DNA of 64,000 nt, taken from positions 62,001-126,000 of the forward strand of contig JAIXKK010000126.1 in assembly GCA_026954325.1 (NCBI GenBank). The letters run 5' to 3'. Every line of letters starts with the position of its first letter. Position 1 is the first letter of the stretch. The notes beneath the pieces are model-generated. The model was given only the letters and a program-made list of their open reading frames with translations, ran no database searches and was not told the origin of the DNA. Positions 29,890 through 62,517 of this stretch are shown piece by piece. This stretch comes from Bryobacterales bacterium. Its GTDB lineage: Bacteria > Acidobacteriota > Terriglobia > Bryobacterales > Bryobacteraceae. The translations under genes were made by a program, and so were the position numbers.

Positions 29890-30269
29890 TTGACAGTTTT
29901 GTTACCCTGGGAGAGATTCGGGCGGTAGCGTTTCCGGGCTTTGCGCGTGTGATTTTTGCTTCCTGCGTTTCTACACAACAGCCAGCAGGCTGTTTCGTCG
30001 AGGGAAACGGCTTCGGGAATTTTCCTGTGCCCACAGGTTCCTCGAACGTCCTCACTACTCGTGTGTCCTCGGTTTCTTCCCCTTCCACGCCAGGGCCGGA
30101 ACCCGCTCTGCGTCCCCGTGTGGAGTACTCTTCCGCCGGCGGTCTTCCAGTGCCCCCGATTCGCGATTTTTCGCGCGGCACCCTCGCGGGCCGCGTAACT
30201 GCTTTGGTTTGTTTGATTAGTGCGTAATCAGTCCGTGCCAGCGGCTTGCCGGCCTTGAGGAGTGGATCA
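29890..30269 (+). promoter_or_regulatory. rpoB promoter candidate and long leader with two hairpins
   Basis: TTGACA at 29890-29895 is a perfect -35; the matching -10 at 17 bases is only GAGATT. If used, the leader is about 345 bases. It contains two short perfect hairpins: AACAGCC-AGCA-GGCTGTT (29977-29994) and CCTGTG-CC-CACAGG (30024-30037). This explains the 468-base gap before rpoB. Small ORFs here look like noise. Control of rpoBC through this leader is possible but unproven. Confidence 0.35.
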
Positions 30270-34571
<4,302 letters not shown>

Positions 34572-34575
34572 CCCG

Positions 34576-34602
34576 CGGAGGGGCTCCTTTTCGAGCCCTC
34601 CG
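34576..34602 (+). terminator. Hairpin between rpoB and rpoC
   Basis: CGGAGGGGCTC and GAGCCCTCCG form a ten-pair stem with one bulged G around CTTTTC-type loop bases, five bases after the rpoB stop. No T-tract follows, so it is more likely an attenuator or RNA-processing site than a full stop. Confidence 0.4.
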
Positions 34603-34665
34603 TTCAATGCGCCGGCGGCCGAGACGCGCCGCGGGCCAGTCAAGTGAGCATAGGAGTCACATTGA

Positions 34666-38889
<4,224 letters not shown>

Positions 38890-48999: not shown

Positions 49000-49827
49000 A
49001 TGAGAGGAATGATTGCCGCGGCAATAGGATTCGTGATGACTCTGGCGGCTGCTTCCACGGGCTCGCCTGACATCGAGAGACGGCTCGAGGCAGCGATCCA
49101 CGGGGAGATCGTTCTCGGCGGCTTGAAGGACGCTATTGAGGAGTATCAGCAAATTCTCAAGCAGCGGGATGCCCCAAGACCTGTTGCGGCACGGGCGCTG
49201 TATCAAATGGGCCGGTGTCTGGAGAAGGAGGGGAGGCGCGCAGAGGCGCGAGACGCCTACGGGCGAGTCATCAAAGACTATGGAGACCAGAGTGGGCCGG
49301 CGGCCGAAGCAAGGGCGCGCCTGGCGGATCTGGAGAAACCGATTCCAGGACCGCTCAATCTGAACTTCGATCAGGGAGAGCCGGGAAAGTTGCCGCCGGC
49401 GTGGTTTGTTCCGGCTCTTCCGAACGAGGCGGATCAATGGGCGCGGTACACGAAGCATGGGTGCCGGAACAGCCGGAGTTGCGCCGTGGTGCTGGTGCCG
49501 GACAACGCTCCGGTACACGTAGGCAACCTGATGCAGAGTTTCGGCGCAAAAGCTTACCAGGGGAAGACAGTGCGGCTGCGGGCATGGATACGGTTGGAGG
49601 CGGTGGATCCGGATGACCACGCGCAGATGTGGCTCAGCGTGGACCGGGCCAGAGACAGGAGGAGGTTTTTTGACAATATGAGCGACCGGCCGGTGAGGGC
49701 CGGGAATTGGACGATGTGCGAGATCCGCACCAAAGTGGACGCGGACGCGACGTTCATCAAGTTCGGCGTAATGTCCATTGGCCGCGGCCGTGTGTTTGTG
49801 GATGACGTCTCCTTCGAGGCGTTCTAA
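49000..49827 (+). CDS. Exported TPR protein with C-terminal beta-sandwich domain
   Basis: The start at 49000 gives a signal peptide (MIAAAIGFVMTLAAASTGS). Alternatives are 48931, overlapping the upstream stop as ATGGCTGA, and 49009 after GAGAGG. Residues about 20-100 carry TPR-like helices (AIEEYQQILKQ; ARALYQMGRCLEKEGRRAEARDAY is the second, given by position 55-78). The rest is a jelly-roll-like beta domain (VRLRAWIRLEA; FFDNMSDRPVRAGNW; GRVFVDDVSFE) as seen in exported acidobacterial proteins. Function unknown. It follows the kinase-regulator fusion. Confidence 0.65.
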   Translation: MRGMIAAAIGFVMTLAAASTGSPDIERRLEAAIHGEIVLGGLKDAIEEYQQILKQRDAPRPVAARALYQMGRCLEKEGRRAEARDAYGRVIKDYGDQSGPAAEARARLADLEKPIPGPLNLNFDQGEPGKLPPAWFVPALPNEADQWARYTKHGCRNSRSCAVVLVPDNAPVHVGNLMQSFGAKAYQGKTVRLRAWIRLEAVDPDDHAQMWLSVDRARDRRRFFDNMSDRPVRAGNWTMCEIRTKVDADATFIKFGVMSIGRGRVFVDDVSFEAF

Positions 49828-49879
49828 AACCGGCGCGGAAACGGGGAGATTCAACGGGAAGAAAAGGGAGGAACGGGAA

Positions 49880-51211
49880 GTGCGCTCAAGGAGACTATTG
49901 ACGGTTGCTGTGCTGTTATTGGCGTTTGGCCTTGCCGGGGTGTGCGAGACAAAGAAGAATTACAAGGACCGGGCGGAGTTCGATCTCTACTCGGCTGTGT
50001 CGAAGGATTTTGAGAGCAAGGATTACAAGAAGGCTATTTCGGATCTGGACGTGTGGAACGAGAAATATCCGGAGTCGGATTTCAAAGACGACCGGCAAGT
50101 CTTGTATGTCCATGCCTATGCCGGCCTGAATGAGCAGGCGAAGGCGCTCGATGCGGGATCGGGTCTGCTCGTCAAGGATCCGGCGAGCGTGTTTCGGGCC
50201 GAAGGCGACCGTATCCGGCTGCTCTATGCTTTGGTGACGGCGGTGGAACACGTTGCTTCGCCCAGCGCCGAGCAAGCGGCTACGGCGAATGAAGCGGCAC
50301 GGCAGTTGGAGGCTATGAGCAAGCCTCCGGCAGGGATGAGTGACGCGGACTGGCGGAAGGCGGAGAAAGGCTTGAAGGCGGCGGCCCGCAGCGCGCAGCT
50401 CTATCTCGCGTTGAATCCAGTCGCAAAGGCCTTACAGGCGAGGGATTGCAAGGCGGCCGAAGCGGATGCGCTCAAGGCGCAGGGGCAGTTTCCGGAAAGC
50501 GTGCAGGCGGCATGGTATTTGGGTTCGGCGCAGCTTTGCCTGTCGCGCACGGACCCCTCGAAAGCGTCTCCGGCTCTTTACGAGTTTGCCCGGGCCGCCG
50601 CGCTCGATCCGGTGAAAGGGATGGTGGATCCGAAATGGCAGCAGGCGACAGTTGTTCCTTACCTCGAGAAAGCATACACGCAATATCATGGCGCTGATCC
50701 CGAGGGGCTGAACCAATTGAAGCAACTGGCCGTGAATTCACCTCTCCCCGCGGAGGGTTTCACCTTGAAGTCTGCGGCTCAGGTGGCCGAGGCCAAACAG
50801 GCGGATCTCGAAAGCAAGCATCCGGAATACGCGCTGTGGCTCAAAATCAAGTCCGCGCTCACAGCAAGCGATGGCGAGCAGTACTTTGCCACTGGGATGA
50901 AGGGGGCCGCGATTCCACGGCTCGAGGGAGTGCTTGCCGGCGCCAAGCCGGCGTGTAACCCGAAGGAACTCCTGGTTGCAATTCCGAAGCCTGGTTCGGC
51001 GGCGGGTAACGCCGAAATTGCCCTGGAACTCGACAAACCGCTTCACGGGAAGCCCGAACTCAATACGCCGTTGAGTTGGGAGGGCGTGGCCAGCGGTTTT
51101 GACAAGGAGCCTTTCCGGCTGACCATGCAAACGGAGGCGGGCAAGATCAGCGGGTTGAAGACTTCGAGCTGTAGTGTGGCTCCGCGAACCAGAAGAATCT
51201 CGCGGCGGTAA
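49880..51211 (+). CDS. Exported TPR-type protein of unknown function
   Basis: The GTG at 49880 follows GGGAGG and starts a signal peptide (RRLLTVAVLLLAFGLAGVC). The 443-residue product begins with TPR-like helices (about 35-110; FESKDYKKAISDLDVWNEKYP pattern) and continues as helical repeats with Cys at wide spacing. A C-terminal beta domain has GNAEIALELDKPLHG and PFRLTMQTEAGKISGL. The last 15 residues (SCSVAPRTRRISRR) look unlike the preceding domain, so a late frameshift may have altered the C-terminus; the OmpA relic follows directly. Confidence 0.6.
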   Translation: MRSRRLLTVAVLLLAFGLAGVCETKKNYKDRAEFDLYSAVSKDFESKDYKKAISDLDVWNEKYPESDFKDDRQVLYVHAYAGLNEQAKALDAGSGLLVKDPASVFRAEGDRIRLLYALVTAVEHVASPSAEQAATANEAARQLEAMSKPPAGMSDADWRKAEKGLKAAARSAQLYLALNPVAKALQARDCKAAEADALKAQGQFPESVQAAWYLGSAQLCLSRTDPSKASPALYEFARAAALDPVKGMVDPKWQQATVVPYLEKAYTQYHGADPEGLNQLKQLAVNSPLPAEGFTLKSAAQVAEAKQADLESKHPEYALWLKIKSALTASDGEQYFATGMKGAAIPRLEGVLAGAKPACNPKELLVAIPKPGSAAGNAEIALELDKPLHGKPELNTPLSWEGVASGFDKEPFRLTMQTEAGKISGLKTSSCSVAPRTRRISRR

Positions 51212-51878: not shown

Positions 51879-52481
51879 TTGGGCTACAAGGTTACGGTGC
51901 TGGTAGCCGCTTTCGCGGCCATCTCTTTCGGACAAAGCATTGAAGAAGGCATCGAACAGTTGCACGCGGCGAAGAATGCGGAAGCGGCTGCTACACTCCG
52001 TTCGGCTGTCGAGCAGGACCCAACCAGCGGACGCGCCCGCTATTACCTGGTGCAGGCTCTGACAGACGACAAAAAGATGGATGAAGCCACGAAGACGCTG
52101 GCGGATGTTCCCAACGAGTGCAAGGACAATGACTACCTGGAACTTGCCAGAGCGTGGGTCGCAATTAACTCCAAGCAGTACGAGGGTGCGCAGAAGTCGA
52201 TCGGGAAGGCGCTCGACATGAACGCCGACAATCCAGAGTTGCCTTACGTGCGCGGAGTGCTCGAGTTGACGCGGAAGAATTATTCCGCTGCCGCCGCGGA
52301 TCTCGAGCGCGCGGCGGAGATCACCCCCTCGAACGCGAACGCGCATTACTACGCCGGGCTGGCGTACAACGGACTGAAGAAGCCCGACAAGATGGTGAAT
52401 CAATTCCAGACTTTTCTCAAACTGGCGCCTGATTCGCCGAATGCGGCGAAAGTGCGCTCTTTGCTGAGAGCCGTCAGGTAG
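51879..52481 (+). CDS. Exported TPR protein
   Basis: A 200-residue protein starting with TTG after a strong AGGAGGT at six-base spacing. A signal peptide (KVTVLVAAFAAISFGQ) is followed by about five TPR repeats (EAAATLRSAVEQDPTSGRAR, ARAWVAINSKQYEGAQKSI, YYAGLAYNGLKKPDKMVN), covering the whole mature part. TPR proteins act as scaffolds, for example BamD-like or YfgC partners in outer-membrane assembly. It ends 14 bases before the giant TamB-Omp85 gene, so it is a good candidate accessory factor. Confidence 0.75.
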   Translation: MGYKVTVLVAAFAAISFGQSIEEGIEQLHAAKNAEAAATLRSAVEQDPTSGRARYYLVQALTDDKKMDEATKTLADVPNECKDNDYLELARAWVAINSKQYEGAQKSIGKALDMNADNPELPYVRGVLELTRKNYSAAAADLERAAEITPSNANAHYYAGLAYNGLKKPDKMVNQFQTFLKLAPDSPNAAKVRSLLRAVR

Positions 52482-52495
52482 CCGCGGACGCTCTT

Positions 52496-55400
52496 GTGCG
52501 CAAGGTCAAGTGGGTAGCGGGTTCACTGCTTGTTCTGATTGTGGCGTTCGCGGTGTGCATCCGGTTGCTCGAATCCGCGCGAGTGCAGCGTCTGGTGGCC
52601 GATGAACTGATTTCGGCGCTTCAACAACAAGGCATGCAATTGGAGTTGAAGTCGCTCGACTACAGCATTCTCCGATTGTGCGCTGTCGCCACCGGGGTCA
52701 CGATTCGATCGAGCGCCGCGCCGGCGCTGCCGCCCATTGCTTCGGCGGAGCGCGTGCAGTTGCGGATGGATGCCGCGCGCCTGTTGCGCGGCTCTTACTG
52801 GATAGAGTCGGCCGTAGTGGACGGGCCGAAGGTTCGCCTGGTCATGAAGGCGGGCGGGGGAGACAACATCCCAAGGCTACCGCCCCGGAACCCACAAGCA
52901 AAGCCCGCCGATATTCTCATTCAGTCTCTTACGGTGAAGGGCGGCTCGCTGCAAGTGGAGGATGAGGCGCACCAGGTTGCAATCAGCATTCCCGGGTGGG
53001 ATGCGGAGGTACACGGCGACGCGGCGACTCTGGCTCACGAGATCCAACTCTCCGCGCGGCGGGCGGGCGAATTGAGTTATCAAGGCCGGGGCGAGGCACT
53101 GGCGGGTTTCACGGCGCGCATACTGGCGCGTAAGGACGGCGTTGTCATCCGCGGTTTCAATCTTCAGGCAGGCGACGCGGAGTTGAAGGTGGCGGGAACC
53201 GTGCAGCCGCTCTCCGCCCCGCTGCTGAATTTAAGCATCGAGGCCAAGGCAGCCATCGGCCCGCTTGCGCGGTTGGCCGGGCTCGGACAAAACCTTGCGG
53301 GCAGCGTGCAAACGCGTCTCGCGGTCACTGGACCGGCGGCGAAGCCTGTCGTGCAAGGTTCGTTGAGCGCCTCGGAGTTCGGCTACGATGAGTACCTGAG
53401 AGGCGTGAACCTCGCCGCCGGAGTGGGTTATGATGGCGCGGCCGGGCGCCTTCGAATCGGCTCTTTCGAGATGCGATCACCCGCGCTGGCGCTGAGCGGC
53501 AATGCCGATCTTGCTTTGAACAAAGGCCTCAGCCGGGCGTCGATTCATCTTTCGCGCGCCGACCTGGGTGAACTCAGCGCCAGATTTTCCAAGGTGAGGA
53601 TCGCCGGGAGCGCGCAGGGTGACCTGCATGCTTCCTGGGAAGGGCTGGCCGCGGAAAGAGCTTCCGGCGAGGGCACGTTTTCCCTTCAGCGTGGAGCGGC
53701 CGCGCAGGACACAGTGCCGGTCTCGGGGACTGTACACGTGAAGGCCCGGCAAGGCGGGATGGAACTGGCGATCGCTCCGCTTGATATGTTCGGGGCTCAA
53801 CTCAACGGTTCGGTGGCGGTTGATGCGAGGCGGCGCCTGAGCGGACATGTCACGGCAGCCGTGCCGGATCTTTCAAAAACAGAATCGGACTGCAATGTTT
53901 TTTGGGGCAAGGATCTGGATGTCGCCGCCGCGGGGCCGGCGGAAGTGACGGCGGATCTTGCCGGGACGCTGGAGGCTCCCGAGGCTGCCTTAGCGCTCAC
54001 CGCGCCGAGGACGGCCATCGGCAGGCTACAAGATGTCGCCCTCCGTCTGCGCGCGACTTACTCCCCGCAATCGGTGCGCGTGAGTGAAGTGGAGACGAGT
54101 TGGCATGGCCAGTCCATTCGGGGGGAAGGCTCCATCGGTTTTTCCGGAGAATCCCCATCGCTCGACTTCCGCCTGCGCCTGCACAACGCCACGCTCGAGG
54201 ATATTTTCGCCGGCGCGAACCGTTCCGATATTCCTCTGCGGGGGACGATCGAGGGCGAGGCGGCGATCACCGGCGCCGTTTCGAAGCCACAGGGCACGGC
54301 GACACTCTCGGCGACGAACCTCTCAGCGTACGGGGAGCCATTCGGCAAGGCGTCTCTGCGGGCGCGCGCCGACAGCGTAACCGCGCGTCTCGAGCAGTTG
54401 CGGCTCGATAAGGCTCCGGGGCAAACCCTGGAGGCGAGCGGCGTCTATGATCTGTCCACGCGCCGCATGTCGTTTACGGCCACGGGCAGAAATCTGGTTC
54501 TCGAGCGCCTCACGCCCACGGGTGGAAAGCCCTTGCAGGCAACCATGGATCTGACGGCCACCGGCAGCGGGACAATTGACAATCCGGAAGCAACGTCACA
54601 ACTCAGAATCCGGAAGGCGCGCTACGGTGACGACTCGATCGGCTCGGTAGATGTTCAACTCACGGCGGCGAATCACCAAGTCAGCACCGCGCTGGATTCA
54701 CCTGATTTCCGTCTTCATGCGGAAGCAACCGTGGGGACAGGCAGTCCTTATCCGGCAAGATTCGAGGTTCAGGCACGCGGCACGGAGATCGGAAAACTGC
54801 CCCTGCATGTTCCGGAGCCGTTGAAGGGAACGCTCCAGGGCGTCGTCCGCGGCTCCGGCGATCTCGCGGATTGGCAGAATGGCACGGCCAGCGCGGAATT
54901 CGACACGGTGTCTCTCGAAGTCCGCGGCCAGAAAGTTCGCAACGATGGCCCGGTACGGTTCTCTTACGGCAACGGCACCCTACAGACGACGCATGCCGTG
55001 CTCGTCTCCTCGCAATCGCGGCTCGAGCTTGCGGGTGCGTTTCCCTCGCAACTGCAAGTGAAAGGGTCGGTCGATCTTGCCGGCGTGAGTGCTTTGTTTC
55101 CCGAGCAAAAGGCGAAGGCGAGCGGGAAATTGACGATCGACGGCGATCTGCTCGGCACGTGGAAGAAACTCGACGCGGCGATGCGATTCCAGGTCACGGA
55201 CGCCAATATCGATGTCGCCGGGATGCCGCCGGTCGCTCACCTGTCTCTGCAAGGCCAGATCCGCAACGGTACGGTGACGGAAGAACTTTCCGCCCAATGG
55301 GCCTCGGGGCAGATCACGTCTTCCGGTGAAGTACCGCTTGGTCTGTTCCCTCTGCCCGAGGAAATTGTGCGTAAGGAGGGGCCGGCCAACCTGTCACTCC

Positions 55401-58400
55401 AAATCAAGGGTGTCAATCTCGCTTCGCTGCCGGGAATGCCTTCCACGCTGGGCGGCGCTGTTTCGCTGCGCCTCGATGCGGAAGCGCCGAAGGCCGATCT
55501 CGATTCGCTCACGGCGCACTTGCGGATTGACGAATTGCAACTCCGCGGCGGCGGTGTGCGCGTGCAACAGAGCGGGGTCTCCTCGATCCGCATCGAGCAT
55601 CGCATCGCGAGGATCGAGCGGTTCAACCTTACCGGATCCGGCACGGATATCCGCTTGAGCGGCGCCGCGGGCCTTTCGGGAGAGCACCCGCTGGATCTGA
55701 AGGCCGAGGGCAGCTTCAACGCCGCGATTGCCGGGGTTTTGACCGACGGAGTCAAACTGCAAGGCCCCAGCCGTCTGCAACTGGCTGTTTCGGGCACAAT
55801 CGCAAGACCCGGCATGAACGGCTTCGTCGAGACGGACAACGCCACCGTGGTGATCCCTTCTCCCAAACTGGCCGTGGACAATCTGAAGGCGCGGGTCGAT
55901 GTCCAGGGCACGCTCATCCGCCTGACGAGACTTTCGGGAGTATTGAACGGCGGCGCGCTCACCGCCGGCGGGCGCGTGCGGTATCAGCGGGGTTTTCTGA
56001 ACGACATCAACCTGGGCATGAAGGCCGACAACGTATATCTTGACTTTCCACAAGGTCTGAAAACCATTTCCAAAGCGGATGTGAACCTGCACGGCACAAG
56101 TGACCGGATGGAAGTGAGCGGCCGGGTGACGATCGAGGAAGGGTCCTACAAAGAGCCGCTGACCTTGCAGGGGGGGCTGCTGCAATACATCCGGTCAGGA
56201 CAGGATGTGCGCGCGGGGACGGCGGACGAAGAATCACTGCTATCCAAACTCGAATTCCGCATCAACGTGAACACCGCGCAGCCCCTGCTCATCGAAAACA
56301 ACATCGCCAAGGCAAACGTTTCGGCGCGGCTGCAACTGGCCGGCGATTATACGCGGCCGGGAATGACCGGCCGCATCACCATTGACGAGGGCGGCCAGTT
56401 GATGCTCAATGAGCGCAACTATTCGGTGGAGCGCGGAGTGATCACCTTCACGAACGAACAGCGCATTGAACCATCGCTCGATATTCTGGCGCGGACGCAA
56501 TTGAAGGATTACGACGTTTCCGTGCAAATCAGCGGAGGGGGCAGCGAGAAGATCACGACCACGCTGACGTCCGACCCGCCGACGCCGGAATCGGACATAC
56601 TCGCCATGCTGCTCACGGGGCGTACGCTCGAACAGGTCCGCGGGCATGAATCCGAGGTCGCCAAGGACCAGGTATTGAGCTACCTCGCGGGCAGCGCGAG
56701 CGCGTCGTTGACCAGCCAGTTGCAGAAGGTGACGGGCATCAGCGAGGTGCGCATCGAGCCGCAGTTGATTCAGGACGAAGCCAATCCGACGGCGCGTCTC
56801 ACAATCGGCGAGGATATCACGCCGAAGCTGAGCCTGATCTACTCCATGAATCTCGCTGACAGCCGGGACCAGATCTATATTGCGCGATACGACATCACCC
56901 GGCGGTTCGTGACGCAACTTACCCGCCAGAGCGATAGCAGCTATCGCATGGAGTTACGGCAGGACCTGCGGTTGGGCGGCAGGCGCCGCCGGGCGAGCGC
57001 CGCTGACGAACGCATCGAGCGGCTGATCGGGAAAGTCCGTTTCCTTGGGGAAGATTACTTCGGCGAATCGAAGCTGCGCGACCGGTTCAAGGTGAAACCG
57101 GAGCAGAAGTATGACTTTTTCAAGATCCGCAACGGACTTGACCGGCTGGAGAAGATGTACTCGAGTGCCGGGTTGCTGGAATCGAGTGTGAGGCTCGAAA
57201 AGGAGACGCAAGAGAAGACGGTGGACCTCACGGTGAACATCACGGAAGGTCCGAAAGTGGAATTCGTCTACGAGGGATGGAGCGTTCCGGGGTCAGTGCG
57301 GGACGCCGTGAAGAAAGCGTGGCGGGATGGGGCGTTTGACGAACAGCGGATGGAGGATTCGAAGCGGCGGATTCTGGGGGCATTGCTGAAGGATGGCCGC
57401 CTCGATGCGACTGTCGAGGCAACGGAGGGTATTCCGGAAAAAGGGGAGCGCAGGGTGCTTTTTGATATTCATCCGGGCGAGCGCTTCGCCAGGGTGGATC
57501 CAGCGTTTGACGGCGCGAAGGGGATTTCCGTGGACGCGCTGAAAGAGCAGTTACAACGCGCCAGGCTGATGATGGCGCTTTATGTGGAGCCGCGGAAGGT
57601 GACGGATGCGCTGGAGGCTTACTATCGCCAGCAGGGTTATCTCGCAGCATCGGTATCCAGCCCTCGGATAGAGAAGAACGCGGCGATGCATACGGCACGC
57701 GTTGTGATCCCAATCAAGGAAGGGCCGCTGTTTCACGTGGGGAATGTGGAGTTCAGCGGCAACCACGCAATCTCCTCGAATACGTTACGGAGCGGACTTC
57801 CCTTACATCCCGGTGACCTCTATTTCCCCAAACTGCGCGAGGACGCCACCGGCAAGCTGCGTGATCTTTATGGAGAAGAGGGATACAACCGCGTGGACAT
57901 TACCTCTTCGCTCGATTTGGAGGCGGCCGCGGGCAAGGTAAACGTGAAGTTCGCCGTCACCGAAAACAAACAAGAGGTCATTGAAGAAATTGCCGTGCAG
58001 GGGAACCGGTACACCAGCACGAATCTGGTGCTTACCCAGTTGCATCTGGCAAAAGGCGATCCCGTCGTTCTGAACAAGATCGGAGCGGCTCGGCGGAACC
58101 TGTACAACACGGGCGCGTTCGCGCTGGTGGATGTCGAGCGGGTTGCCGTGCCCGGCGCCGCGGGAGGCAATCAGCAACCGGTTCGTTTGACAGTCCGGGT
58201 GCAGGAGATACAGCCCTGGGAGATACGTTACGGCGGGTATTACGATACCGACCGGGGACCGGGCGGCATTGTCGATGTCTCGAACCGCAATATGCTGAGA
58301 AGTGCTAGGGTGCTCGGCATGCGGTATCGTTATGACGCCGACCTGCATGAGCTGCGGCCCTATTTCAGCCAGCCCCTGCTGAAGAGATTTCCCCTGCAAA

Positions 58401-59218
58401 CTACTGCTTCCGGCTTTCTGCGCAGGGAAATCATGCCCGGCTTCATTACAGACCGGCAGGGGTTGCTGCTGCAGCAGCAGGCGCGCCCGGCCAAGCACTA
58501 CGTGATCGACTACGGCTACAACATCGAGAAGACCCATACGTATGAGCCGAACCCGGATTCGCTGTTTCCGCTTGACGCGACTCTACGGTTCGCTTCTCTG
58601 CTTACCAGTGTGACGCGGGAGACTCGAGACGACCTGCTCGATGCGACGCGCGGGTCGATGGTCTCCCAATCCTTTGAATGGGGCCCCGCGGTATTGGGTT
58701 CGCAGCTTCGGTATGTCCGCTATTTTGGACAGTACTTCAAGTTCATCCCGTTGTCGAAGCCCGCGCCGGTTCCGTTCTCCACCATGGAGCGGTCTCGCGT
58801 TGTGTTCGCGGGCGGGGCGCGGGTGGGGTTCGCGGGCGGACTCGGCGGCGACGAATATCCGATCGCAAAGCGATTCTTTTCGGGCGGCGGCACGACGATC
58901 CGAGGTTTTGATTTCAATTCCATCGGGCCGCGAGACGCGTTGGGAAATCCTGAGGGGGGCGACGCGGTGATTGTTCTGAACGGCGAACTGCGCTTTCCTC
59001 TCTTCAAGATGTTCGACGGCGTGGGTTTTATGGATGCGGGCAATGTATACCGGCGAGCGAGCGACTTCGATCTTGGCGACATGAGAAAATCAGCCGGGTT
59101 TGGACTGCGTGTGAGAACCCCCTACATTCTCATCCGCGTGGATTACGGCGTGAAACTGGATCGCCGGCCGGGGGAAGGGTTCGGGAAGCTGTTCTTCAGC
59201 ATCGGCCAGGCGTTTTGA
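52496..59218 (+). CDS. TamB-like protein fused to a five-POTRA Omp85 (BamA/TamA-type) barrel
   Basis: One 2240-residue frame joins two envelope machines. Residues 5-24 are an inner-membrane anchor; 25-1160 are AsmA/TamB-like repeating beta structure (LxxxLxIxxGxL strands); 1160-1490 is the TamB C-terminal domain (DUF490), with VSGRVTIEEGSYKEPL, GRITIDEGGQLMLNERNYSV and SLIYSMNLADSRDQIYIARY. After a basic linker (GGRRRRASAADERIERL) come five POTRA domains starting near 1511, 1587, 1664, 1745 and 1826, then a barrel from about 1907 with the Omp85 loop-6 motif IRGF (2135-2138) and a C-terminal Phe. It starts with GTG. TamB normally partners separate TamA or BamA proteins; five POTRAs suit BamA better than TamA (three). 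The chain would span inner membrane, periplasm and outer membrane. Confidence 0.88.
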   Translation: MRKVKWVAGSLLVLIVAFAVCIRLLESARVQRLVADELISALQQQGMQLELKSLDYSILRLCAVATGVTIRSSAAPALPPIASAERVQLRMDAARLLRGSYWIESAVVDGPKVRLVMKAGGGDNIPRLPPRNPQAKPADILIQSLTVKGGSLQVEDEAHQVAISIPGWDAEVHGDAATLAHEIQLSARRAGELSYQGRGEALAGFTARILARKDGVVIRGFNLQAGDAELKVAGTVQPLSAPLLNLSIEAKAAIGPLARLAGLGQNLAGSVQTRLAVTGPAAKPVVQGSLSASEFGYDEYLRGVNLAAGVGYDGAAGRLRIGSFEMRSPALALSGNADLALNKGLSRASIHLSRADLGELSARFSKVRIAGSAQGDLHASWEGLAAERASGEGTFSLQRGAAAQDTVPVSGTVHVKARQGGMELAIAPLDMFGAQLNGSVAVDARRRLSGHVTAAVPDLSKTESDCNVFWGKDLDVAAAGPAEVTADLAGTLEAPEAALALTAPRTAIGRLQDVALRLRATYSPQSVRVSEVETSWHGQSIRGEGSIGFSGESPSLDFRLRLHNATLEDIFAGANRSDIPLRGTIEGEAAITGAVSKPQGTATLSATNLSAYGEPFGKASLRARADSVTARLEQLRLDKAPGQTLEASGVYDLSTRRMSFTATGRNLVLERLTPTGGKPLQATMDLTATGSGTIDNPEATSQLRIRKARYGDDSIGSVDVQLTAANHQVSTALDSPDFRLHAEATVGTGSPYPARFEVQARGTEIGKLPLHVPEPLKGTLQGVVRGSGDLADWQNGTASAEFDTVSLEVRGQKVRNDGPVRFSYGNGTLQTTHAVLVSSQSRLELAGAFPSQLQVKGSVDLAGVSALFPEQKAKASGKLTIDGDLLGTWKKLDAAMRFQVTDANIDVAGMPPVAHLSLQGQIRNGTVTEELSAQWASGQITSSGEVPLGLFPLPEEIVRKEGPANLSLQIKGVNLASLPGMPSTLGGAVSLRLDAEAPKADLDSLTAHLRIDELQLRGGGVRVQQSGVSSIRIEHRIARIERFNLTGSGTDIRLSGAAGLSGEHPLDLKAEGSFNAAIAGVLTDGVKLQGPSRLQLAVSGTIARPGMNGFVETDNATVVIPSPKLAVDNLKARVDVQGTLIRLTRLSGVLNGGALTAGGRVRYQRGFLNDINLGMKADNVYLDFPQGLKTISKADVNLHGTSDRMEVSGRVTIEEGSYKEPLTLQGGLLQYIRSGQDVRAGTADEESLLSKLEFRINVNTAQPLLIENNIAKANVSARLQLAGDYTRPGMTGRITIDEGGQLMLNERNYSVERGVITFTNEQRIEPSLDILARTQLKDYDVSVQISGGGSEKITTTLTSDPPTPESDILAMLLTGRTLEQVRGHESEVAKDQVLSYLAGSASASLTSQLQKVTGISEVRIEPQLIQDEANPTARLTIGEDITPKLSLIYSMNLADSRDQIYIARYDITRRFVTQLTRQSDSSYRMELRQDLRLGGRRRRASAADERIERLIGKVRFLGEDYFGESKLRDRFKVKPEQKYDFFKIRNGLDRLEKMYSSAGLLESSVRLEKETQEKTVDLTVNITEGPKVEFVYEGWSVPGSVRDAVKKAWRDGAFDEQRMEDSKRRILGALLKDGRLDATVEATEGIPEKGERRVLFDIHPGERFARVDPAFDGAKGISVDALKEQLQRARLMMALYVEPRKVTDALEAYYRQQGYLAASVSSPRIEKNAAMHTARVVIPIKEGPLFHVGNVEFSGNHAISSNTLRSGLPLHPGDLYFPKLREDATGKLRDLYGEEGYNRVDITSSLDLEAAAGKVNVKFAVTENKQEVIEEIAVQGNRYTSTNLVLTQLHLAKGDPVVLNKIGAARRNLYNTGAFALVDVERVAVPGAAGGNQQPVRLTVRVQEIQPWEIRYGGYYDTDRGPGGIVDVSNRNMLRSARVLGMRYRYDADLHELRPYFSQPLLKRFPLQTTASGFLRREIMPGFITDRQGLLLQQQARPAKHYVIDYGYNIEKTHTYEPNPDSLFPLDATLRFASLLTSVTRETRDDLLDATRGSMVSQSFEWGPAVLGSQLRYVRYFGQYFKFIPLSKPAPVPFSTMERSRVVFAGGARVGFAGGLGGDEYPIAKRFFSGGGTTIRGFDFNSIGPRDALGNPEGGDAVIVLNGELRFPLFKMFDGVGFMDAGNVYRRASDFDLGDMRKSAGFGLRVRTPYILIRVDYGVKLDRRPGEGFGKLFFSIGQAF

Positions 59219-59223
59219 GGAAG

Positions 59224-62200
59224 CTATGAGAGCAGCAACTCGAGATCCTCGCGCTTGAGATCGGCGATGAAGCTGTTGCTTTCGGAAATGATGGCGTCGG
59301 CCAAGTCCTTCTTCGATCTCTGAAGATCAAGAACTTTTTCCTCGACGGTGTCGCGCGCGATGAGACGGTAGGCGAAGACGGGGCGAGTCTGTCCGATGCG
59401 GTGGGTGCGATCGATGGCCTGCGCCTCGACGGCGGGATTCCACCATGGATCGAGGAGGAAGACGTAGTCCGCCGCGGTGAGGTTGAGCCCGAGGCCGCCG
59501 GCTTTCAGACTGATGAGGAACAGTTTGCAATCCGGGTCGTTCTGGAAGTGCTCCACCGAGCCCTGGCGGTCGCGGGTGGAGCCATCCAAATACTCGTAGG
59601 TGGTTTTCCTCGCGTCCAGGTGGCCGCGGAGGATGCCGAGCATGGTGGTGAATTGGGAGAAGACAAGCGCCTTGTGGCCTTCACTGAGCACTTCCTCGAG
59701 TTGTGGCAGCAGCGTGTCGAGTTTGGCGCTCGATTCGCCCGCGTGTTTCTTATCGATCAAGCCCGGATGACAAGCCGCCTGGCGCAGGCGGAGGAGCGCT
59801 TCGAGGATCTGGATCTTGGACCGGCGGAAACCACTGCGTTCGATGCGGCCGAGGAGGTTGCCACGGTAGTAATCGCGCAGTTCATCGTAGAGTTTCCGCT
59901 GCGGCGGGTCCAGTTCACAATAGATGGTCTGTTCGCTTTTCCCGGGCAGTTCGCGCGCAACCTGCTCCTTGGTGCGGCGGAGGATAAACGGACGGACGGC
60001 GCGCGCCAGCAGGCGCCGTGTCTCTTCATCGGGATTCCGGAGGACACTCGCGGTGGCCTGCAAGGCGGAAGCGCCGCCGAGCATGCCGGGGTTGAGGAAC
60101 TCGAACAGGCTCCACAGTTCGCCGAGGTGATTTTCGATGGGTGTGCCGCTGAGAGTGAGGCGGTGGCCGGCGGTGAGGAGGCGCGCGGCCTTCGCGGATT
60201 CACTCGTTGAGTTCTTGATGGCCTGTGCTTCGTCGAGGATGACGTAGTCGAAAGAAAAATCCTTGAGATCGAGGACATCGCGGCGCAGCATGCCGTAGGT
60301 GGTGAGCACAAGGTTGTACTGAGAGAACAGCGCCGGATCCTTCACGCGGCCGGCCCCGGAATGATCGAGCACGGCGAGGTGAGGAGTGAAGCGGGCGGCC
60401 TCGTTTTTCCAGTTGTAGATGAGAGAACGTGGGACCACCACGAGAGAAGGGCCAGCGCCCTGCTGGCGGCGGTATTCGAGCAGCGCCAGCACTTGGGCGG
60501 TTTTGCCCACTCCCATGTCGTCGGCGAGGCAACCGCCCCAACCGAGTTGGGCGAGGAATTCCATCCAGCCCAGGCCCTCGCACTGATAGCCGCGCAACTC
60601 TCCGCTAAAACCGGGCGGCTGCTGCCTGGGATGGATCCCTTCAAACGAACCGAGCCGCTCGCGGGCTGCGCGGAACCTCTCGTCCACCTGGATCTCTTCG
60701 CGCCCGGCGAGGAATACATCGAGCAGGCCGGTCTGCGATTTGGAGTAGCGCAGATGATCTCCTTCGGCTTTTCCAAGGCGGAAGAGCGTTCCGTAGCGGG
60801 AGAGGAGTTCTTCCGGGAGAAGGCCGTAGGCGCCGTCGTCGAGCAGGACCATGCCTTCGCCCTTCTGGAGGGCTTTGATGAGTTGGGGCAGGGGGACATG
60901 GCCTCCGCCGAAATCAACGGCTCCGTGCAGTTCGAACCAATCGATGCCGGAGGTGAGTTCGGCGTGGAAAGATTCCGGCTTGCGGAACATCTTGCCCTCC
61001 GCTTCGACGTGCCAGCCTTCCTTGACGAGTTGCCGAACGACACCCGGCAGTTTCTTGGAGGGGAGTTCCCAAATGAGGCCGGACTCGTAGTAGGCATAGG
61101 TTGGCCTCTTGAGGCCGGCCTCGATCAGGAGTTCAATGGCCGTCTTCTCGGCTCCCGGATCGCGGTGAATGAATCTTTTTGCTCCGGCTTCGTAGGCGCC
61201 GGTGTTATTTTCGTCGGGTTGGAAGGTATGGCCGTCGTATTCGAAGGACAGCTCGCCGCGAAGTTTGCCGCCTGCCTGCATGCGGTAGGCGTAGGATCGC
61301 AGGGTTGGGGGTGAGATGCGCAGGCAAGGCCGGGGCGCGACGCGCACCTCTTCGTAGCGCAGATCTTCCGGAAGGGATACCCGAGGAGGGCGAGGAAGTT
61401 TGACGAATTCCTCGAGAAATTGCGGGCCTTGGCTGACGGGAATGACGATCTGCTTTTCCTTGCGCAGCGCCTGAGTCCAGGAGAATGCCCCGTGGTGCTC
61501 GTAGCGGGCGATACGGTTCCGATGCAACAGGAGGCCATCGGAAAAAAGGACATCGAGATCTTCTATGCTACGTTCTTCCGAATCACGGGTGAGGGAGCCG
61601 CGAATCTTGTAGTAATCGCCCTCCTGGTCAATCCGGAGGGAGAAATCCCAGATGGGGCCGTTATCCCATTCGAGAACGGGCATCTCCTCGGCGGGATCAG
61701 AGTTGTCCTTGCGCAACAGGAAGCGGCCGCTCGCGCAGAGCCGGGGGATGACGGAATCGGCGAGCGGTGGAGTGAGGTAACACCCGGAAGGCACCGCCTC
61801 GTAGGCCCACCCATACGAAGATTGCGACGTGCCGAAGAGCACGGCGAGAATCTCCCGTTCCTCCGGTTGAGGGAGGAAAGCAACGTGGGCGCGATTGATT
61901 TTGTGCGGCCTCAGCTTCCCGAGCCGGCCGCCCTGAATGGGATCCCGGACCTCGATGGCCACGTAGAAGCGACCGGTGGCAAGGCAGGTGCGCCATTCGA
62001 GGATGTAGTAGATCTGGCGGCCGGGCAGCCAGTGGTCCGCGAGATGGGCGCCGGGCTGAGAAGACGTGCGGATATCGGAGAGCAGCGTGCGCCAGGTGGG
62101 AGGCGGCGGGGCGGAGGGCTTCCTCAATATCGACCGCCGCTTGATAGCGGGGCGGTCGCGGCGAGGCGCCGGCGCCACTATTGCCTCACTGGCTTCCGGG

Positions 62201-62517
62201 TTTTCCAATTGTCCCGCGAGGTACGGCCGGCCGCCCATTCTTCCGAGGAGGTAACTTTTCGAGTCCGCGGCGAGGACGGCGGCCCACATGTGTTTGCATA
62301 ACCCGCCTTCCCCGGGCTGCAGACAGTCGCAGGACGGGGTAACGCAGTCCCCCTCGCGGCGGAGTGATACCTTCCACTCGCGTGGATCCCGCACGACGGC
62401 ATCGATACTCCACTGGTTTCCGCCGAGGATACGCACAAAGCCGCCGTCGAACAGAGAAGCGCCGGCAGCGCGTGTCGAGGCATGGAAAGAATGCGAGAGG
62501 AACCGCTGTAGGTACAT
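59224..62517 (-). CDS. SWIM zinc-finger SNF2-family helicase/ATPase
   Basis: A 1097-residue protein. The N-terminal SWIM finger is C63, C65, C74, H76 (CDCLQPGEGGLCKH). A long middle region (100-630) is typical of bacterial SNF2 proteins. Helicase motifs follow: I at about 665 (DDMGVGKTAQ), II at about 760 (ILDEAQAIKN), III LSGTPIENHLGELW, and in the second lobe IV-VI with LISLKAGGLGLNLTAADYV and AIDRTHRIGQTRPV. Such proteins remodel nucleoprotein, often RNA polymerase (RapA-like) or repair complexes. It is convergent with the TamB-Omp85 gene, five bases apart. Confidence 0.92.
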   Translation of the reverse strand: MYLQRFLSHSFHASTRAAGASLFDGGFVRILGGNQWSIDAVVRDPREWKVSLRREGDCVTPSCDCLQPGEGGLCKHMWAAVLAADSKSYLLGRMGGRPYLAGQLENPEASEAIVAPAPRRDRPAIKRRSILRKPSAPPPPTWRTLLSDIRTSSQPGAHLADHWLPGRQIYYILEWRTCLATGRFYVAIEVRDPIQGGRLGKLRPHKINRAHVAFLPQPEEREILAVLFGTSQSSYGWAYEAVPSGCYLTPPLADSVIPRLCASGRFLLRKDNSDPAEEMPVLEWDNGPIWDFSLRIDQEGDYYKIRGSLTRDSEERSIEDLDVLFSDGLLLHRNRIARYEHHGAFSWTQALRKEKQIVIPVSQGPQFLEEFVKLPRPPRVSLPEDLRYEEVRVAPRPCLRISPPTLRSYAYRMQAGGKLRGELSFEYDGHTFQPDENNTGAYEAGAKRFIHRDPGAEKTAIELLIEAGLKRPTYAYYESGLIWELPSKKLPGVVRQLVKEGWHVEAEGKMFRKPESFHAELTSGIDWFELHGAVDFGGGHVPLPQLIKALQKGEGMVLLDDGAYGLLPEELLSRYGTLFRLGKAEGDHLRYSKSQTGLLDVFLAGREEIQVDERFRAARERLGSFEGIHPRQQPPGFSGELRGYQCEGLGWMEFLAQLGWGGCLADDMGVGKTAQVLALLEYRRQQGAGPSLVVVPRSLIYNWKNEAARFTPHLAVLDHSGAGRVKDPALFSQYNLVLTTYGMLRRDVLDLKDFSFDYVILDEAQAIKNSTSESAKAARLLTAGHRLTLSGTPIENHLGELWSLFEFLNPGMLGGASALQATASVLRNPDEETRRLLARAVRPFILRRTKEQVARELPGKSEQTIYCELDPPQRKLYDELRDYYRGNLLGRIERSGFRRSKIQILEALLRLRQAACHPGLIDKKHAGESSAKLDTLLPQLEEVLSEGHKALVFSQFTTMLGILRGHLDARKTTYEYLDGSTRDRQGSVEHFQNDPDCKLFLISLKAGGLGLNLTAADYVFLLDPWWNPAVEAQAIDRTHRIGQTRPVFAYRLIARDTVEEKVLDLQRSKKDLADAIISESNSFIADLKREDLELLLS

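Follow-up and report, generated by a model that had tools for sequence, protein, structure and literature searches.

The window analysed here is a 64,000-nucleotide stretch of contig JAIXKK010000126.1 (assembly GCA_026954325.1, Bryobacterales bacterium), and its source organism, a member of the Acidobacteriota, is a soil bacterium. Positions 52496–59218 hold one uninterrupted frame of 2240 residues, without an internal stop, that carries a TamB half and an Omp85 half in a single chain, and a small gene for an exported TPR protein ends 14 nt before its start. The features of the two genes are as follows.

51879–52481, forward strand: small exported TPR protein, 200 aa, TTG start; matches Pfam TPR families; candidate periplasmic partner.
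52496–59218, forward strand: TamB-Omp85 fusion gene; GTG start, 2240 aa, stop-free open reading frame.
52505–52576, forward strand: N-terminal inner-membrane anchor, about residues 4–27; sole hydrophobic segment, cleavage site not apparent.
52577–55933, forward strand: AsmA/TamB-type beta groove, about residues 28–1146; AsmA, DUF748 and YhdP matches in Pfam, extent presumed.
55934–56974, forward strand: TamB domain to its natural C-terminus, residues 1147–1493; PF04357 at 1147–1479, end taken from alignment.
56948–56974, forward strand: last TamB strand, residues 1485–1493; aligned with E. coli TamB 1251–1259.
56975–57028, forward strand: linker, residues 1494–1511; length near-fixed and sequence variable in 61 fusions.
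57026–58210, forward strand: five POTRA domains, about residues 1511–1905; five PF07244 stretches, last boundary presumed.
58211–59215, forward strand: Omp85 barrel, about residues 1906–2240; PF01103.

The first-pass annotation, made from the letters and their translations, had already described an anchor, a groove, a DUF490 domain, five POTRAs and a barrel with a C-terminal Phe in this frame, and profile searches of both halves bore it out. The TamB domain (PF04357, DUF490) was matched at residues 1147–1479 with an E-value of 8.8e-41 and 140.9 bits, against a curated cut-off of 22.4, and AsmA/DUF748 matched at the N-terminus of the protein; the POTRA profile PF07244 matched five stretches (best 1511–1585, 6.8e-41), and PF01103 matched residues 2032–2240 (1.5e-38, 133.6 bits). 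An RGF motif is located at residues 2136–2138 (58901–58909) and the terminal Phe at 59213–59215. When compared by sequence with known structures, the TamB half matched TamB chains and the Omp85 half matched BamA and TamA chains, and no Pfam match to an MCE domain was found in the protein up to an E-value of 1. The chain contains a single hydrophobic segment of membrane type, at its N-terminus, and hydropathy stays below zero throughout the junction. Orthologues likewise carry an N-terminal hydrophobic stretch. As the earlier reading had it, no cleavable signal is apparent in the sequence, and the segment is predicted to stay on the protein. AlphaFold2 was run on residues 1140–2240 with four window/Bryobacterales sequences, and the model (pLDDT 28.7, shallow alignment) was discarded and not used.

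Around the two genes, a SNF2/SWIM-type helicase of 1097 aa (59224–62517, reverse strand) is convergent with the fusion gene, the stops being 6 nt apart; it matches the PADLOC models DpdE and ZorD, probably via the shared SNF2 domain, and adjoins the fusion in the closest relatives only. Four kb upstream of the fusion, a 477-aa protein (49778–51211, forward strand) gave a sub-threshold YfiO/BamD match (3.9e-5). At two places in 30246–38889, frames of ~1280–1440 aa occupy both strands of the same DNA, and one strand at each overlap is probably a shadow frame of high-GC DNA.

The source assembly is a draft of 228 contigs, and adjacent unfused tamB and omp85 genes occur in the phylum, both of which would suit an assembly or sequencing error that joined two neighbouring genes. 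Such an artefact, including a lost stop, was ruled out by homologues in many genomes and by selection, and we give it practically no weight. The dN/dS ratio against a close homologue (L008) was 0.04–0.38 in each 160-residue window of the entire protein, and against a second one (L009) it was 0.07–0.25 from residue 961 onward; purifying selection thus runs across the join. Full-length single-frame homologues of 32–41% identity were found in many genera, with full-length fusions in ~30 additional genomes; dozens of genomes carry the fusion as a single frame, one of them (G526) a one-contig genome of 6.0 Mb, and in G104 the fusion lies on a 4.26-Mb contig. The homologues are unsplit at 56950–57030, where the first-pass annotation had allowed that orthologues might prove to be divided. 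Frame breaks within the fusion gene were seen at two loci from sister genomes (L064 and L066), away from the junction. One broken copy, in G118 (L066 9549–14676; L136), is interrupted in the barrel and has lost its first ~540 residues, reflecting either gene decay or assembly error.

By alignment, separate TamBs of Acidobacteriota and E. coli TamB end near residue 1493 of the window protein, which places the join directly after the natural TamB C-terminus, so that a complete TamB is joined to a complete Omp85. In the E. coli complex, TamB residues 1251–1259, with which the last TamB strand aligns, pair with barrel strand 1 of TamA in a hybrid barrel seen by cryo-EM (PMC12800296). The linker that follows was compared in 61 fusions, some of them partial and a few near-copies of one another. 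Its length was 16–27 residues with a median of 18, which is also the length in the window protein. Arg, Gly and Pro are abundant in it, and conservation is at its lowest there (0.35 vs 0.54 and 0.45 in the flanks); no conserved motif was found among the 61. A constant length combined with a free sequence suggests that the linker is under a geometric constraint.

The variable sequence and basic composition would also fit a polyprotein that is exported whole and then cut in the linker by a periplasmic protease, yielding equal amounts of ordinary TamB and Omp85, and the POTRA part indeed lacks a separate export signal. Cleavage of the basic linker could occur; however, a mere cut site would not need a length as tightly conserved as that of this motif-free linker, and we consider a polyprotein unlikely. 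The first-pass annotation had also named a separate start for the POTRA part as a finding that would count against a single chain. Start codons near the join are at residues 1472, 1485 and 1493, and of these only 1485, which falls within the last TamB strand, is conserved in close relatives. None of the three is followed by a hydrophobic export signal, and since the junction has no hydrophobic segment, a POTRA-barrel product from an internal start would be made without an export signal; this candidate was rejected.

The fusion is a widespread Acidobacteriota family and is not peculiar to the window genome. Our survey covered Acidobacteriota, the named relatives being Bryobacterales MAGs, and it found the same single-frame fusion in many genomes of the phylum, as the earlier reading had invited us to look for. 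In its own family the fusion is present in 23 of 150 genomes, 22 of them seen across the junction and one (G071) with the fusion split over two contig ends; in two more genomes outside this count (G107 and G016), an N-terminal part of the fusion runs off the contig end. At an E-value of 1e-60, a profile of the junction matched 24 of 399 genomes of the class and 52 of 396 of the phylum; at a looser 1e-45 it matched 21 of 99 genomes, all at least 95% complete, and no stop codon occurs in any of the matches listed. Nearly all of 33 distant loci carry a full-length, single-frame fusion of ~2000–2540 aa, the longest of which (e.g., L097) probably contain read-through from upstream. The distribution is patchy, and the fusion is missing from some genomes even within its own genus, which makes it non-essential. 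No match was found on plasmids.

Two variants were seen beside the common form. In a shorter fusion of 1855 aa (L112 3204–8771; L113 3–3161), a single weak POTRA separates the TamB domain from the barrel, and G491 has both this shorter fusion and a full-length one. A 1549-aa frame with an open 5' end (G521, L117 7350–11999, reverse strand) ends in an Omp85 barrel.

Quick trees, with SH-aLRT support only, were built for each half and for the two concatenated. The Omp85 halves group with TamB-linked Omp85s, outside the canonical BamA clade (support 98–99, starred), and they form two sets, of 43 and 5 members. The TamB-half tree contains the same two sets, indicating that the halves travel together. 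In the TamB tree (91) and the concatenated tree (90), all fusions fall to one side of a single branch; the Omp85 tree takes two changes for the fusion state. The fusions of L079, L080 and L088, which come from three other families, are nested among those of the window genome's own family (98, starred, in the concatenated tree), a placement suggestive of some horizontal transfer; in G622 and G807, two of the genomes concerned, there is also a second fusion, of the type typical of their own families. The five-member set (L094, L097, L103, L104 and L110) comes from genomes with the fusion as their only TamB and is placed by the trees near unfused pairs of TamB and Omp85; it may have arisen by a second fusion event or else represent the deepest branch. 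Two loci (L124 and L127) have an unfused tamB followed by omp85 with an overlap of ~1–11 bases, so fusion by stop loss would be an easy step.

The type of the Omp85 half was assessed with equivalog-level models. It scored 270.6 bits with the BamA model TIGR03303, below the cut-off of 297.15, which other Omp85s of the same genome (on C54 and C113) pass; it scored 90.2 bits with the TamA model NF047950 (cut-off 625), having five POTRAs and not three, and 69.2 bits with the TamL model NF052279 (cut-off 400), the barrel part having no N-terminus of its own. The TamB half scored 96.1 bits with the proteobacterial TamB equivalog NF047952, against a cut-off of 825. The first-pass annotation had suggested, from the five POTRAs, that the barrel is BamA-type rather than TamA-type: the scores agree with this, but the tree places the half with TamB-linked Omp85s and not with housekeeping BamA.

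The first-pass annotation had also raised the point of whether separate bamA and tamB genes are kept beside the fusion. In the window genome they are: a canonical BamA is encoded on C54 (TIGR03303, 433 bits) and a separate Omp85-TamB operon on C113 (977 and 1336 aa), so that the fusion could be specialised there. In several other families a separate tamB is not kept. The fusion chain is the only TamB (PF04357) match in 10 of the 40 fusion genomes. In nine of these, which belong to families f31, f41, f61, f64 and f69, the matching chain spans the junction; in G505 the sole TamB match is at a contig end, and in G647 both of the two PF04357 matches are fusions. All 40 genomes have further Omp85 matches; in G580 a single 887-aa Omp85 accompanies the fusion. 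Where no other TamB matched, the fusion is the sole candidate TAM.

These data bear on the possibility that the fusion is an export system for one substrate or one lipid class, in which the TPR protein acts as substrate adaptor, and that the separate Omp85-TamB operon does the TAM work. The genes retained in the window genome, the patchy distribution and a TPR gene that goes with the fusion are all in its favour; on the other hand, several families have the fusion as their only TamB, and apart from the TPR gene no conserved gene for a substrate lies in the neighbourhood. As a general explanation we find it doubtful, although a specialised, substrate-specific role could hold in part alongside a single-chain TAM.

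The first-pass annotation had picked out the small TPR protein 14 bases upstream as a candidate partner, and its linkage to the fusion strengthens that suggestion. Every own-family fusion locus that retains an intact 5' end together with the region before it has a same-strand TPR homologue ~4–29 nt upstream, and three other loci (L083, L099 and L100) have one likewise at 25–79 nt. At eleven distant loci a convergent homologue lies downstream instead, in most cases no farther than 150 nt and never more than ~845 nt away; another two loci have weaker matches 2.9–3.9 kb off, and others have none. At fusion-free loci the homologue is rare. With a TPR profile at an E-value of at most 1e-42, 25 of 150 own-family genomes were positive, namely 22 of the 23 fusion genomes vs 3 of 127 others (Fisher p 4e-22, uncorrected for genome kinship). 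In two of the three exceptions the fusion sits at the end of a contig, the third being G054, and the single fusion genome without the TPR gene is G118, whose fusion is broken. Linkage in two gene orders together with co-occurrence is good evidence that the TPR protein and the fusion share a function. The protein was tried as a BamD and rejected (TIGR03302, 19 bits vs 81.4), and in the main text of open-licence PMC papers no description of a periplasmic TPR subunit of TAM was found.

Several known systems resemble the fusion in part. The TamA-TamB complex (TAM) of Proteobacteria likewise combines an inner-membrane-anchored TamB, whose C-terminal domain is complete, with an Omp85 barrel bearing POTRAs, and the E. 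coli TamAB, studied by cryo-EM, is known to bind lipid and to pair at the gate (PMC12800296); TamA and TamB chains are in the PDB as 9xdc, 9xdd, 23sp and 23sq. TAM, however, consists of two proteins in the order tamA-tamB with three TamA POTRAs, whereas the fusion puts TamB ahead of Omp85 in a single chain, carries five POTRAs and has a TPR gene beside it. The BamA-TamB operons of Acidobacteria and Spirochaetes (PMC4494059; the BAM-TAM hybrid of Borrelia, PMC13382580) also pair TamB with a BamA-type Omp85, in Spirochaetes in the TamB-Omp85 order, but they encode separate proteins, and the order reported for Acidobacteria is BamA-TamB, as in the C113 operon; no fusion is mentioned there. TamL-TamB of Bacteroidota is a TAM with a non-TamA Omp85 partner, but TamL is a separate lipoprotein (PMC12045153). 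An elongated MlaD of Veillonella has an inner-membrane anchor and an outer-membrane barrel in one chain (PMC10665443), and it offers a precedent for one chain spanning to both membranes; it differs in belonging to the MCE-domain proteins and in its model, a hexamer whose barrels are small, and it is unrelated to TamB/Omp85. In the main text of open-licence PMC papers, we found no published description of a TamB-Omp85 fusion. Heinz 2015 notes a few TamBs of very long length, which might include one, and database records of such fusion proteins surely exist under automatic names.

The frame, the domains, the homologues and the selection all agree with the one-chain TamB-Omp85 reading, and we estimate at roughly 70% the probability that the gene encodes a single-chain TAM with a candidate periplasmic TPR partner. 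In such a protein, the uncleaved N-terminal helix would anchor the TamB half in the inner membrane, the lipid-binding beta groove would cross the periplasm, and the five-POTRA Omp85 barrel would be inserted into the outer membrane, presumably by the separate BamA. The covalent tie would fix a 1:1 pairing and hold the exit of the groove at the barrel. The last TamB strand is kept and, by analogy with E. coli, would dock at the barrel gate as it does at that of TamA; with the strand docked there and only ~18 residues (at most roughly 60 angstrom) leading to POTRA1, the five POTRAs would probably curl beneath the barrel. Most likely the fusion would pass phospholipid outward along the groove, help to fold a subset of OMPs at the barrel gate, or do both, and the exported TPR protein probably serves as a soluble subunit in the periplasm, docking onto this complex.

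With somewhat less assurance, we think it probable that the fusion is an uncleaved polypeptide integral to both membranes, a self-contained phospholipid/OMP conduit with a new TPR subunit that replaces the two-chain TAM in several Acidobacteriota lineages. The fusion provides Rosetta-stone evidence, beyond Proteobacteria, that TamB and an Omp85 work as one unit. As a natural construct of fixed stoichiometry and near-constant linker, it may serve to probe how TamB is placed relative to the barrel gate and the POTRAs and how lipid exits the groove. It also poses a puzzle of biogenesis, as BAM would have to insert the barrel while the other end of the chain stays in the inner membrane, and it points to a periplasmic TPR subunit.
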